NCBI GenBank assembly: GCA_947466075.1
Contig: CANIBP010000003.1
Coordinates: 124,001-188,000, forward strand
DNA length: 64,000 bases
DNA from: Verrucomicrobiaceae bacterium
GTDB taxonomy: Bacteria > Verrucomicrobiota > Verrucomicrobiia > Verrucomicrobiales > Verrucomicrobiaceae
Direction: 5' to 3'
Shown: positions 32,700-63,632 of the stretch, in pieces
How the letters are laid out: the number at the start of each line of letters is the position of its first letter
How positions within the stretch are numbered: position 1 is the stretch's first letter
Made by a program: the position numbers and the translations under genes
Notes under the pieces: model-generated
Databases searched by the model: none
What the model saw: only the letters and a program-made list of their open reading frames with translations
Told to the model about the DNA's origin: nothing

Positions 32700-33704
32700 A
32701 TGTCAAATTCCTCACTCCCCCAAGACGACGTCGCCGCCATTGATGAACTGCGCCAGGTCTATGGCCGACTCAGCGCCGAGCTAAAAAAAATCATCGTCGG
32801 CCAGGACAAAGTCGTCGAGCAACTCGCCATCTGCCTCTTCGCTCGAGGTCACGCCTTGCTCATGGGCGTCCCCGGCCTTGCCAAAACTTTGCTCATCTCA
32901 CGCCTCGCCGAAACGATGTCGCTCAGCTTCAGCCGCATCCAGTTCACGCCCGACTTGATGCCCATGGACATCACCGGCACCGATATTCTTCAAGAACTGC
33001 CCGGCGGCAAACGCGCCTTCGAATTCGCCAAAGGCCCTGTGTTTGCGAATATCGTCCTCGCCGACGAAATCAACCGCGCTCCCGCCAAAACACAGGCTGC
33101 GATGCTCGAGGCCATGCAGGAGCACAAAGTCACCGTCGCTGGTCGCACCTACACCTTGGACTCACCCTTCTTCGTTCTCGCCACGCAGAACCCCATCGAG
33201 CAAGAAGGCACCTACCCGCTGCCAGAGGCCCAGCTCGACCGCTTCATGTTCATGATCGGTGTCGATTACCCGAGCCGTGACGAAGAAATCGCCATCGCGA
33301 GAAGCACCACGGGTCTGAGTTTGCCAAAACTCGAGCACATCATGGATGGAGCCAAAGTTTTGGCGTTTCAGGATTTGGTGCGCCGCGTTCCCGTGCCCGA
33401 TCATATCTACGAATTCGCCGTCGATCTCGCCCGCAAGACACGTCCCGCTAGCTCAGAAGCTCCCGCATGGCTGAAGCCGCTTGTGAGCTGGGGTGCAGGC
33501 CCTCGTGCGGTGCAGTATTTGATTCTCGGTGCCAAAGCCCGCGCTGCACTCAATGGCAGTTACATGGTGAGGCTTGAGGATGTGATGGAAGTCGCTGAGC
33601 CTGTGCTGCGTCATCGCGTGATGACGACCTTCACGGCTGAGAGCGATGGTGTGACGAGTCGTGATGTGGCGAAACGTTTGGTCGAAGAACTCGCGAAGGC
33701 CTAA
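32700..33704 (+). CDS. MoxR-family AAA+ ATPase
   Basis: 334 aa from the ATG at 32700 (longer in-frame extensions upstream overlap the previous gene and are not supported). Walker A GVPGLAKTLL, Walker B IVLADEINRAPAKTQAAML, sensor FVLATQNPIEQEGTYPLPEAQLDRF and the MoxR lid are present. MoxR ATPases act with VWA-domain proteins as chaperone or metal-insertion systems. It opens a cluster with DUF58, two more VWA membrane proteins and a TPR protein on the same strand. Between it and DUF58 lies an inserted cassette. Confidence 0.93.
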   Translation: MSNSSLPQDDVAAIDELRQVYGRLSAELKKIIVGQDKVVEQLAICLFARGHALLMGVPGLAKTLLISRLAETMSLSFSRIQFTPDLMPMDITGTDILQELPGGKRAFEFAKGPVFANIVLADEINRAPAKTQAAMLEAMQEHKVTVAGRTYTLDSPFFVLATQNPIEQEGTYPLPEAQLDRFMFMIGVDYPSRDEEIAIARSTTGLSLPKLEHIMDGAKVLAFQDLVRRVPVPDHIYEFAVDLARKTRPASSEAPAWLKPLVSWGAGPRAVQYLILGAKARAALNGSYMVRLEDVMEVAEPVLRHRVMTTFTAESDGVTSRDVAKRLVEELAKA

Positions 33705-33720
33705 ACGCGCTCATCACAAA

Positions 33721-33755
33721 TCGTCCTCGTGCTCGTTCTCCTACTCGTCCTCGAT
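33721..33755 (+). repeat. Left inverted repeat of the four-helix-bundle cassette
   Basis: 35 bp made of TCGTC/CTCGT/ACTCG-type words; begins TCGTCCTCGTGCTCG and ends CGTCCTCGAT. Complement of 34171-34205 with a single mismatch (33740). Confidence 0.85.
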
Positions 33756-33769
33756 CAAATCGCTCCGCC

Positions 33770-34231
33770 ATGCCCAACATCGTTCAATTCGACCATGAGA
33801 AACTCGAGGTCTATCAACTTGAGCTCGCCTTTCTCACCTGGGTTACTGACTTGATGATCGAAATCCGCGCCACACAGCATCCTCACCTTCGCGAAACCTT
33901 CGACCAACTCGACCGGGCGAGCCTGTCCGCCCTGCTCAACACCGCCGAGGGCAACGGCAAGCGTGCCACGCAGCAGCGAGCACGCTACTTCGACGATGCG
34001 CGTGGCTCTGCGATGGAGTGTGCGGCATGTCTGGATGCCTTGGTTGCTAAGCGAGCAACGACACAGCAACGAATCGCCGAGGGTAAGGCGTTGCTGATAC
34101 GAGTGGTGTCCATCTTATGTAAGCTCGTGGAGAGATTCGATGTAGGCGCTGCCAATTCGTTGCCGCTAGAATCGAGGACGAGTAGCAGAACGAGCACGAG
34201 GACGAAACTTGGAGGCTACGATCATGGCTGA
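33770..34231 (+). CDS. Four-helix-bundle (23S rRNA intervening-sequence type) protein
   Basis: 153 aa. The family core is visible: FDHEKLEVYQLELAFLTWV in helix 1, LDRASLSALLNTAEGNGKR with the conserved N/AEG turn, YFDDARGSAMECAACLDAL in helix 3 and a last helix to about 135. The bacterial family (TIGR02436-like; related to the Avd helper of diversity-generating retroelements) is of unknown biochemical function. The last 15 or so residues (ESRTSSRTSTRTK and beyond) are encoded by the right inverted repeat and overrun into the DUF58 start, so the tail is probably not functional. Confidence 0.82.
   Translation: MPNIVQFDHEKLEVYQLELAFLTWVTDLMIEIRATQHPHLRETFDQLDRASLSALLNTAEGNGKRATQQRARYFDDARGSAMECAACLDALVAKRATTQQRIAEGKALLIRVVSILCKLVERFDVGAANSLPLESRTSSRTSTRTKLGGYDHG
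34171..34205 (+). repeat. Right inverted repeat of the four-helix-bundle cassette
   Basis: 35 bp beginning ATCGAGGACGAGTAG and ending CGAGCACGAGGACGA; see the left repeat at 33721-33755. Confidence 0.85.
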
Positions 34232-35126
34232 CTCTGCTCGATCCTTTCTAGACCCCGCCGTTCTCAGCCGCCTCATGGCGCTGCCGCTGAACGCGCGCCA
34301 AGCCATGCTCGGCAACGTCTCCGGTCATCACCGAAGTCCCGTGCGCGGTTCCTCGCTCGAGTTCGCTCAATACCGCAAATACGTACCTGGCGACGACACA
34401 CGCCGCCTCGACTGGCGCACCTGGGGCCGCAGTGACCGCTTTTACATCAAGGAGTTCGAAGCCGACACCAACCTGCGCCTCTGCCTGCTCATCGACACCA
34501 GCGGCAGCATGAACTTCGGTCCCGCTGGAGCCACACGCTTCGACTACGCGCGCAAACTCGCCGGCACGCTCGCCTACATTGCCGCGCAGCAGGGCGATGC
34601 CGTCGGCCTGCACTCGCTCGCCGAAAAATCCGTCGAGATACCCGCCAAACGCGGCGCGAGCCACCTCGGCCTCGTGCTCGATCAAATGGCCGCCATCCAG
34701 CCCGTCGGCGATACCACACTGCTCACCGCGCTGCACGATGCCGCCGAAAAAATCCGCCAGCGCGCCCTCGTCGTCATCTTCAGCGACCTTTTCGTCGAGC
34801 CTGCCGAACTGAAGTCCGCCATCCAGCACCTGCGCTTCCGCAAGCACGACGTCGCCATCTTCCACCTGCTCGATCAGAAGGAACTCGACTTCGATTTCGA
34901 CCGACCCGCCCGTTTCATCGACATGGAAGGCGGCGAAGCCGTCCTCGCCGACCCCAGCCTCATCGCCCGCAACTACCGCGAGGCCGTGAAGCAATACATG
35001 ACCGAAATCGACGACCTCATCCGCACCACCGCCATCGACTACCACCGCGTGAAGTTGCACGAGAAGTACGACGACGTGCTTGTGAAGTTCCTGCTTGCGC
35101 GCATTCAGAAGAAAGGAGGCCGGTGA
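34224..35126 (+). CDS. DUF58 domain protein with VWA fold
   Basis: 300 aa from the ATG at 34224, 8 bp after a GGAGG ribosome site; the TTG at 34209 is not used. The DUF58 core reads YRKYVPGDDTRRLDWRTWGR then FYIKEFEADTN, followed by a MIDAS metal site LLIDTSGSMNFG. It partners MoxR ATPases in many bacteria. The stop shares one base with the next ATG. Cytoplasmic or membrane-associated. Confidence 0.9.
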   Translation: MADSARSFLDPAVLSRLMALPLNARQAMLGNVSGHHRSPVRGSSLEFAQYRKYVPGDDTRRLDWRTWGRSDRFYIKEFEADTNLRLCLLIDTSGSMNFGPAGATRFDYARKLAGTLAYIAAQQGDAVGLHSLAEKSVEIPAKRGASHLGLVLDQMAAIQPVGDTTLLTALHDAAEKIRQRALVVIFSDLFVEPAELKSAIQHLRFRKHDVAIFHLLDQKELDFDFDRPARFIDMEGGEAVLADPSLIARNYREAVKQYMTEIDDLIRTTAIDYHRVKLHEKYDDVLVKFLLARIQKKGGR

Positions 35127-35487: not shown

Positions 35488-35781
35488 ATGACTCAAGTCG
35501 CTATTCAACTTCCAGATGATCTCGGCCAGTTCCTACAGAGAGCCGTCCACTCAGGTGGATTTCACGATTCAAATGAGTTCTTCATCAGCATTGTTGCCAA
35601 TCTGAAGGAGCAGACAGAATCGCCTCTCACGAGCGAGGAAGAACTCAAGCTAGCATCCCTGCGCGTGGATATTCAGCACGCTGTCGATCAAGCGGAGCGT
35701 GGTGAGGTCATCCGCGACTTCAAAATGGATGCATTTCTCGAAGAACGTCACCGCGAGCACTCCGCTGCTGACGCAGCCTGA
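35488..35781 (+). CDS. ParD-like antitoxin
   Basis: 97 aa. The N-terminus TQVAIQLPDDLGQFLQRAV then GGFHDSNEFFISIVANL fits a ribbon-helix-helix DNA-binding domain of the ParD/CopG type, and the acidic helical remainder (EEELKLASLRVDIQHAVDQAERGE) would cover the toxin. It is 6 bp from the toxin gene. It should repress its own transcription. Confidence 0.78.
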   Translation: MTQVAIQLPDDLGQFLQRAVHSGGFHDSNEFFISIVANLKEQTESPLTSEEELKLASLRVDIQHAVDQAERGEVIRDFKMDAFLEERHREHSAADAA

Positions 35782-35787
35782 TCCTGC

Positions 35788-36090
35788 ATGCCGCTAGTTG
35801 ACGTCACACTCGATGCACAGGCCGATCTCAAGGAGATATGGGCCTTTGTAGCCCGTAATAGCGTGATGCAAGCGGACCGGTTGCTGAATCGCTTTCAGGA
35901 AACGTTTCAATATCTTGCCAGCCATCAGGGATATGGTCGTCCTCGTTCGGAACTGTCGCCTGGTTGCCGCAGCCATCCTTTCGGGAAATACTGCTTCTAT
36001 TTCCGCACGACGAATGATGGCATTCTACTCCTGCGTGTGCTGCACTCCGCTCGCGACATCCGCCAGATCGAGTTCCCGAAGAACCCATGA
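35788..36090 (+). CDS. RelE/ParE-family toxin
   Basis: 100 aa. The fold blocks are DVTLDAQADLKEIWAFVARN, then RLLNRFQETFQYLASHQGYGRPR, and the last strand segment ILLLRVLHSARDIRQIEF, with the R/S-rich end typical of RelE/ParE. The stop (36088-36090) lies inside the 30-bp repeat and overlaps the ATG of the batA-like gene, mimicking the original junction. Confidence 0.85.
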   Translation: MPLVDVTLDAQADLKEIWAFVARNSVMQADRLLNRFQETFQYLASHQGYGRPRSELSPGCRSHPFGKYCFYFRTTNDGILLLRVLHSARDIRQIEFPKNP

Positions 36091-62126: not shown

Positions 62127-63632
62127 TCACTTCCGAAACGGTGACGCAGGAATACCTGCACCATTGAAGAGTGACGCGGTGGGATTGTCTTTCCACGCAT
62201 AACGAACCTGTTTCGGCTCCGCAACGGCCTTGGCAGAGACGATCACGGTTTCGCCTACGATCTTCGCCTCTGCAGGCTGCCACTGTCCATCAGCACCAGC
62301 GAGTTCGAAGCCGGTGAGATCACCTTTCGCGGTCAAACCCTTCGCATGCTTGAAGGTGAGCGCCATTTCACCGCCTTTCGCGGTCGCGGTTTCGATCAAC
62401 GGGCCGCAGATGGCAGGAACGTCCTTCTGATAAACGCTTCCCAATGCCCACTGTGCGAGACGAAAGCCCACGTCCTGCTTATTCGTCGGGTGAATGTTCT
62501 TGGGATCACCGATGTCGAGCGTGATGGCCATACCACTGTTTGGAATGGTGCTCAGTGCGTTCATCATCTGCTCGCGCACGATCATCCAGCCTTCACCGGC
62601 ACGAGTAAAATTCGGCAACTGCACCCAGGCGAAGGAAAACTCATCGTTCCAGCGCTTGCGCCAGTCTTTGGCGAGCAGGGTGAGTTGATGCTGATAGAAC
62701 GGCGCCTTCACGTCCGCGCTGTTCGCCTCGCCTTGATACCAGATGGCACCGCGCATCGCATAGGGGATCAGCGGCGCGATCTTGCCGTTGAACAAACCTC
62801 CCACATTGCCTTTGCGTTTACGTGTTTCCAATGGATCACGCGGCTTGCGTGGCAGCGGCTTGCGTGGCAGCGGCTTGCCTTCAGCCTTGGCTTTCTTCAC
62901 TGTATCAGTCCATTGTAAAACCTGACGATCATATGCGGACTTCGTTTTCTCTTCATCAAACTGAGCATCGGCCTGCTTGGTGGCTGCAAAGAATGGTTTG
63001 AGTTCTTCGCTCGCCTGTTGCGCCTCAGGACTGATCCAGGACTCGATGGGAGTGCCACCAACGGAGGAATTGATGAGTCCAACGGGTATTCTGAGTGCCG
63101 CATGCAGCGTGCGGCCAAAGAAAAACGCGGTGGCAGAAAAACGGCCCACAGTTTCGGACGTGCAGACCACCCAGGTGCCTTTGCCTAATGTTTGCGCAGA
63201 TGGAGATGCGGCACTGGCTTCGGTAAACATACGAATCTGCGGCAGAGTCGCAGCAGCCTTGGTACCTTCGAAGTCTTTGGCGCTCTGCACGGCCATCGCC
63301 ATGTTCGACTGGCCGGAACCAAGCCATACTTCGCCAATGAGCACGTCTTTGATCGTTTTGTCACCAACCGTGAGTGTCAGCGGTTCGGCAGATGCAGTAA
63401 GCGCATCAAGTTTGAGCAACCATTGTCCTTCGGCGTCGGCTTTGGTGGTCTTTCTCTGACCGGCGATGGCCACGGTGACTTCCGTGTTCGCATCAGCCGT
63501 GCCCCAAACGGGAACAGGCTTGCCACTTTGCAGGACCATGTGGTCGGAAAAGGTAGCGGGCAGCGTGACGGCGGCTTGCGCCGAGAGAGTGAGAAGCGGC
63601 TTGTGAACGCTGCGTCTAAAGCGTTCCTTCAC
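62127..63632 (-). CDS. Sialate O-acetylesterase (SASA domain)
   Basis: About 501 aa. The start is uncertain: GTG 63632 (with a GGAG upstream) or TTG 63650; no ATG precedes the conserved part. The N-terminus KERFRRSVHKPLLTLSAQAA would be a short signal peptide. Family blocks: LGSGQSNMAMAVQ (Ser), NSSVGGTPIESW, RGAIWYQGEAN and a DIGDPKNIHPTNKQDVG segment with the Asp/His pair. An insert near 265 has the repeated words PLPRK PLPRK P from a 15-bp tandem repeat. It deacetylates sialic acids or similar sugars. It begins just after a kinase fragment. Confidence 0.8.
   Translation of the reverse strand: MKERFRRSVHKPLLTLSAQAAVTLPATFSDHMVLQSGKPVPVWGTADANTEVTVAIAGQRKTTKADAEGQWLLKLDALTASAEPLTLTVGDKTIKDVLIGEVWLGSGQSNMAMAVQSAKDFEGTKAAATLPQIRMFTEASAASPSAQTLGKGTWVVCTSETVGRFSATAFFFGRTLHAALRIPVGLINSSVGGTPIESWISPEAQQASEELKPFFAATKQADAQFDEEKTKSAYDRQVLQWTDTVKKAKAEGKPLPRKPLPRKPRDPLETRKRKGNVGGLFNGKIAPLIPYAMRGAIWYQGEANSADVKAPFYQHQLTLLAKDWRKRWNDEFSFAWVQLPNFTRAGEGWMIVREQMMNALSTIPNSGMAITLDIGDPKNIHPTNKQDVGFRLAQWALGSVYQKDVPAICGPLIETATAKGGEMALTFKHAKGLTAKGDLTGFELAGADGQWQPAEAKIVGETVIVSAKAVAEPKQVRYAWKDNPTASLFNGAGIPASPFRK
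62841..62879. repeat. 15-bp tandem repeat (2.6 copies) in the esterase gene
   Basis: CGGCTTGCGTGGCAG is repeated at 62841, 62856 and partly 62871. In the coding frame it gives PLPRK twice. Copy-number change would alter the protein by five residues without frameshift. Confidence 0.8.

Follow-up and report, generated by a model that had tools for sequence, protein, structure and literature searches.

Intervening sequences (IVSs) of 23S rRNA, whose first report is dated 1990, are elements for which function and origin, together with those of the S23p proteins encoded within them, have been called unclear (PMC4990558). The IVS of Coxiella comprises 428 nt, with a 28-bp stem and an S23p open reading frame (ORF) preceded by heptamer tandem repeats (PMC4990558), and the S23p protein of X. 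campestris is described in the same source, which cites Lin 2006, as a ring-shaped pentamer. Here we describe an element of comparable anatomy that lies in a protein operon, between moxR and a DUF58 gene, in a stretch of 64,000 nt from a Verrucomicrobiaceae bacterium (assembly GCA_947466075.1, contig CANIBP010000003.1, positions 124,001 to 188,000; hereafter, the window). It consists of a single gene of the 23S_rRNA_IVP family (the IVP gene) bordered by two inverted arms made of tandem repeats. With a probability of roughly 0.55, we take this element to be a mobile cassette of protein operons that resembles an IVS and carries one 23S-IVP (S23p/Avd-like) gene between inverted tandem-repeat arms that act as its ends.

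The initial annotation, made from the letters of the window, had proposed inverted-repeat ends matching at 34 of 35 positions around a gene of the 23S rRNA IVS family, and both points were confirmed. The arms measure 35 nt each, are complementary at 34/35 positions and are spaced by 415 nt, which gives an element of 485 nt (coordinates are collected in Table 1). They form the top inverted repeat of the window at its range (score 32, runner-up 22), and the folded strand of the element is much stabler than its shuffles (z -5.3, with 0/100 shuffles equally good). The gene between them matches PF05635 (23S_rRNA_IVP; E 9e-13, 48.8 bits, cut-off 33.8) and TIGR02436 (45.6 bits, cut-off 24), and its neighbours were recognised, in accordance with their first naming, by the MoxR (AAA_3) and DUF58 profiles. 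The IVP stop codon overlaps the DUF58 ATG by 8 nt, and the C-terminal tail of the IVP protein is indeed read from the right arm, as had been predicted. No recombinase was seen in the element, in line with the same annotation, and an Rfam scan of the window matched no family, rRNA included.

This architecture, for which an IVS-like nature in an mRNA operon had been claimed at one locus, proved to be far more general than that claim. IVP-family genes are found in 47/48 same-genus genomes, with up to 11 per genome. The 300 nt on either side of the family domain were compared with each other for inverted matches, and a best score of at least 13 counted as a pass. In the genus set, 74.5% of 98 non-redundant loci pass this arm test; among 908 other positions within these loci the pass rate is 0.55%, and for swapped arms it is 5.3%. 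A wide set, consisting of the best 80 loci of a profile scan of GTDB species genomes (three-sequence query, one starting subfamily), gave a pass in 71.4% of 77 loci, with 1.5% of 1639 positions and 10% of swapped arms as controls, and its phyla include Bacteroidota, Planctomycetota, Nitrospirota, Desulfobacterota, Acidobacteriota, Campylobacterota, Patescibacteria and others. The arms are degenerate arrays of tandem units, mostly of 7 nt, also of 8 and 10 nt (hexamers in the window), and the units differ between lineages. Paired arms show an identity of 0.91 in register versus 0.72 after sliding by one unit, so they are inverted copies and not merely two arrays of one motif. A literature search without most subscription journals and without any bioRxiv preprints turned up no account, outside rRNA, of IVP genes that lie between inverted arms of tandem repeats.

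Several of these elements lie within conserved operons: they interrupt hisA-hisF (locus L184), carA-carB (L232) and the pair formed by a citramalate/isopropylmalate synthase gene (leuA-like) and leuB (L211). An Rfam scan of 16 wide loci detected no rRNA, and matches to a 23S probe never exceeded one per locus. Host-gene names were assigned by eye for L175, L236 and L041, and by NCBIfam for L184, L232, L211 and the TilS of L175. Many of the genomes are incomplete metagenome-assembled genomes in which ORFs and neighbours come from a simple longest-ORF script; four genus loci of uncertain strand were excluded from strand-dependent tests, and same-site pairs are non-independent observations. As a separate observation, the C terminus of CarA is encoded, in L232, by the left arm (2940-2998), so that the insertion changed the end of an enzyme subunit.

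Gene and arms behave as a unit when different host sites are compared. IVP proteins that are 88-92% identical occur at distinct places (L103/L116 versus L117/L129), and the homology between them extends beyond the gene by about 40 nt upstream and 9-23 nt downstream, ending within the arms. Furthermore, arm similarity at different host sites rises with protein similarity, from 0.16 at less than 35% identity to 0.63 at more than 70%. At the moxR-DUF58 junction itself, whose downstream gene is present in 23 genomes, eleven of the readable junctions are filled and genome G049 also carries the unit; G012 holds only the left arm and a remnant of the IVP gene, five junctions are empty, with 14 nt (G059, G017, G016, G041 and G057), and two have an unrelated spacer (G052 and G042). 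The insert is thus lacking in five of the relatives sampled, and the outcome that the initial annotation had named as contrary to its proposal, the same insert in all distant relatives, did not occur.

The IVP genes of this junction fall into three well supported clades, and filled lineages alternate with empty sites. Between clades, the proportion of synonymous differences (pS) of the IVP gene reaches 0.64-0.88, versus mostly 0.18-0.49 for DUF58 and, where compared, 0.33-0.58 for moxR (C-terminal part) in the same genome pairs; within clades, the synonymous divergence of IVP and DUF58 is about equal (0.38 vs 0.36 and 0.40 vs 0.41). Arm type follows the IVP clade, with the exception of G001 and G015, which have an extra type-A copy on the left (type A being the arm type of the window). 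Between-clade divergence that is restricted to the IVP gene, together with clade-specific arms, indicates that the whole unit has been replaced or re-inserted at the junction and the flanking genes have not. Judged by these sequence comparisons, gene and arms travel as one unit and turn over at moxR-DUF58. Concerted evolution of the two arms was also considered for this junction and set aside, because whole-unit replacement fits better with an arm type that follows the IVP clade. A tree of one host gene, for counts of gain and loss, was mostly unresolved.

The arms are, in addition, dispersed without the gene. The search for other copies of the 35-bp ends that had been recommended found the arm sequence at several further positions of the window genome and in 30/48 same-genus genomes; in the former, the type-A copies stand singly or as inverted pairs. 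Type-A counts have a median of 20.5 in the 12 genomes with a window-type IVP gene versus 0.5 in the other 36 (p 7e-6, computed without phylogenetic correction across the 48 genomes). A second family, the 10-nt repeats that make up the arms around the IVP gene of contig C35, gives 52 pattern matches versus 1 for the reversed pattern, with many short inverted pairs, and a gene-less array of these GTTTGCGATG-type repeats fills the gap upstream of moxR in the window.

Some further repeat arrangements were observed alongside these. Three related proteins, which share about 50% identity with that of the window and are encoded at other sites (L284, L285 and L286, in G057, G006 and G059), apparently have a complete hairpin on each flank and not a single arm. 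The gene gap of L253 holds a type-A hairpin in the window genome and a GTTCGC/GTTCTC heptamer-like array in the relatives L290, L294, L292 and L298, which suggests that some gaps are recurrent targets of different repeat families. Finally, in L308 (G000:C16:68064-68408), a Y1 transposase gene lies inside an inverted repeat of about 60 nt that has its own palindrome, CCGTGGGTGCCAACCCACGG; this is apparently an ordinary system of a REP-associated tyrosine transposase (RAYT) and repetitive extragenic palindromes (REPs), separate from the IVP repeats.

Regarding the protein, its AlphaFold2 model has four helices (mean pLDDT, the predicted local distance difference test, 82), with the last ~24 residues (130-153), largely arm-encoded, predicted as disordered. 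The best Foldseek matches of the model are the solved S23p proteins 2gsc and 2rld, and it also matches the Avd proteins of diversity-generating retroelements (DGRs) 8ub7 and 4dwl. Across the 15 closest orthologue pairs, the ratio of nonsynonymous to synonymous rates (dN/dS) ranges from 0.03 to 0.25, a sign of purifying selection and, therefore, of a selected function of the IVP protein. In 8/8 type-A orthologues, the IVP frame passes through the right arm and ends just past the DUF58 ATG, and in type-B orthologues it ends within the right arm.

An alternative to this mobile cassette is an IVS proper in an mRNA, in which the arms would be kept for RNase III cutting of the 35-bp stem, with excision of the insert or separation of the messages, and mobility would be secondary. 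The anatomy equals that of the rRNA IVSs (Coxiella; PMC4990558), RNase III is encoded in the genome, and the predicted stem is strong and would be a good substrate for the enzyme, which may excise the insert. Complementarity is moreover retained in homologous copies, against the loss that the initial annotation had listed as evidence to the contrary: in most clade-3 elements, 33-36 of 33-36 positions match, and the two arms of the comparable ones are nearly or fully identical to one another, though between species the gene shows a synonymous divergence of about 0.4-0.6. However, selection on RNA pairing should favour G.U, and the arm mismatches of 125 element loci, read in the sense RNA, comprise 82 G.U versus 91 A.C; without a G.U excess, RNA pairing is not visibly selected. 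The IVP gene is co-directional in 42/56 host contexts and antisense in 2, which equals the ordinary genes of the same loci, and the orientation bias was thus dropped as a proof of an RNA mechanism. The proposed splitting of the moxR and DUF58 messages, in turn, is weakened by the stop/start overlap of all eight type-A orthologues, which looks like preserved translational coupling and suggests that the message is meant to remain joined. At the empty site, the 14 nt (stop codon included) part moxR from the DUF58 start region, and the type-A read-through may be a repair of that coupling. Taken together, we regard an IVS proper as unlikely, albeit worth keeping in mind. In any case, the arms are maintained by something, which may be selection acting on them as recognised ends, in DNA or in RNA, or their homogenisation with the dispersed copies.

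Purifying selection on the protein, the co-directionality with the neighbours (as in ordinary genes) and the overlap with DUF58 could also be accommodated by a resident operon gene with a regulatory stem, whose arms control its own translation or that of DUF58; the 5' arm is purine-rich in the wide set and could serve as a ribosome-binding region. A resident gene is hard to reconcile with the empty sites of relatives, the lineage turnover at the junction, the presence of gene plus arms at unrelated sites and the dispersal of gene-less arm copies, which make this explanation improbable. Even less credit is given to arms that would be REPs spread in trans by a Y1 (RAYT-type) transposase, with the IVP gene lying between two of them by chance. 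The window genome does encode three Y1_Tnp genes, and the dispersed single and inverted-pair repeats resemble REPs and their inverted doublets (REPINs), but the flanks of those genes carry unrelated repeats or none, and neither type-A nor 10-nt ones, so that the transposase was rejected as the source of the repeats; besides, an association between IVP genes and arms that spans phyla and dozens of unrelated arm sequences weighs against a chance placement.

The mobile cassette is consequently the explanation that we favour, and a mechanism can be sketched for it. The arms would be the recognised ends of the cassette, and the IVP protein, a four-helix bundle with solved relatives that assemble as pentameric rings, may bind the repeat of its own element, as DNA or as part of the transcript, and thereby allow an enzyme of the host to copy the unit or insert it. 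Gene-less hairpins would be non-autonomous derivatives, by analogy with what REPINs are to RAYTs. The unit is probably tolerated in the operon because it is co-directional and placed between a stop and a start codon and, in the lineage of the window, because an IVP frame that continues across the arm as far as the DUF58 start would keep translation coupled. RNase III cutting of the long stem, as in rRNA, could be an extra step. Several points weigh against this explanation. Old alleles carried on short homologous-recombination tracts could also produce the turnover at the site. For the dispersed copies, a search for clean empty sites with a target-site duplication yielded none: the repeats at the sites compared are shortened or of another kind, and the moxR-DUF58 empty site has itself diverged. 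The type-A count association is uncorrected for phylogeny, and many type-A repeats occur without the gene in the incomplete assemblies of G021 (33), G052 (19) and G042 (14). The arms of some close orthologues (L010/L063) drift without compensation and, lastly, we infer both the binding of the arms by the IVP protein and its part in the movement.

Table 1. Features of the element and its surroundings (window positions).
Feature	Position	Strand	Description
Left arm	33721..33755	+	Hexamer array TCGTCC-TCGTGC-TCGTTC-TCCTAC-TCGTCC-TCGAT
Right arm	34171..34205	-	Reverse complement of the left arm (34/35); also codes for the IVP protein tail
23S_rRNA_IVP / four-helix-bundle gene, 153 aa	33770..34231	+	PF05635, TIGR02436
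Overlap of DUF58 start codon and IVP stop codon	34224..34231	+	ATGGCTGA; kept in eight type-A orthologues
moxR, upstream host gene	32700..33704	+	AAA_3, E 1e-62
DUF58 gene, downstream host gene	34224..35126	+	DUF58, E 1e-44
Gene-less inverted array, 10-nt repeats	31585..31675		Gene gap upstream of moxR; repeat family of the contig C35 IVP arms

Two other features of the window were noticed. Between the DUF58 gene and the large gene that comes next in this operon region, two adjacent small ORFs (97 and 100 aa; 35488-36090) resemble, by eye, an antitoxin-toxin pair of the ParD/ParE type, and at 62840-62878 there is a perfect 15-nt tandem repeat, GCGGCTTGCGTGGCA, in 2.6 copies.

In broader terms, the data suggest that the usual home of the IVP family is the gap between operon genes rather than rRNA, and that the arms obey one simple rule, being inverted arrays of 6-10-nt units that vary from lineage to lineage, in a unit that moves. 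The cassette may account for many short tandem or hairpin repeats in Verrucomicrobiota and other genomes, and would be an example of a selfish unit tolerated within essential operons such as carA-carB. More tentatively, and with our expectation leaning against it, IVP proteins might be sequence-specific partners of inverted heptamer-type arrays in a widespread, undescribed mobile class, where a non-enzymatic ring protein and a host enzyme spread cassettes that carry the gene, as well as hairpins that lack it, through operons, with the rRNA IVSs as a special case that came to lie in 23S rRNA.

Among the repeats already described, the STRR sequences of cyanobacteria are short tandem heptanucleotide repeats. 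Beggiatoaceae have TAACTGA heptanucleotide tandem repeats (PMC4679880). Both share with the arms the repetition of 7-nt units in gene gaps; in contrast, the arrays described here are inverted arms around an IVP gene, and no such gene is mentioned for Beggiatoaceae (PMC4679880). The likeness to DGRs lies in the four-helix-bundle fold that the IVP model shares with Avd, whereas the element showed no associated reverse transcriptase or template/variable repeats, for which no dedicated search was made. REPIN/RAYT systems also comprise a gene flanked by repeats, which occur in addition as scattered inverted pairs without the gene and are rare or absent in many relatives that do not have it. Unlike them, the protein here is a four-helix bundle (PF05635) and not an HUH/Y1 transposase, the arms are arrays of 6-10-nt units and not short palindromes, and the unit moves with the gene inside. 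Lastly, the 23S rRNA IVSs of Coxiella, Leptospira, Salmonella and others have in common with the window element a similar size (428 nt in Coxiella versus 485 nt), a long terminal stem and a single sense-oriented IVP/S23p ORF, which in Coxiella is likewise preceded by tandem repeats. Nevertheless, the arms of the window element are also dispersed as gene-less hairpins, and its ORF is intact and under purifying selection, whereas that of Coxiella is decaying. Since it lies between moxR and DUF58 in a protein operon and not inside 23S rRNA, we do not count it among the rRNA IVSs, but regard it as an element of their kind in a different setting.
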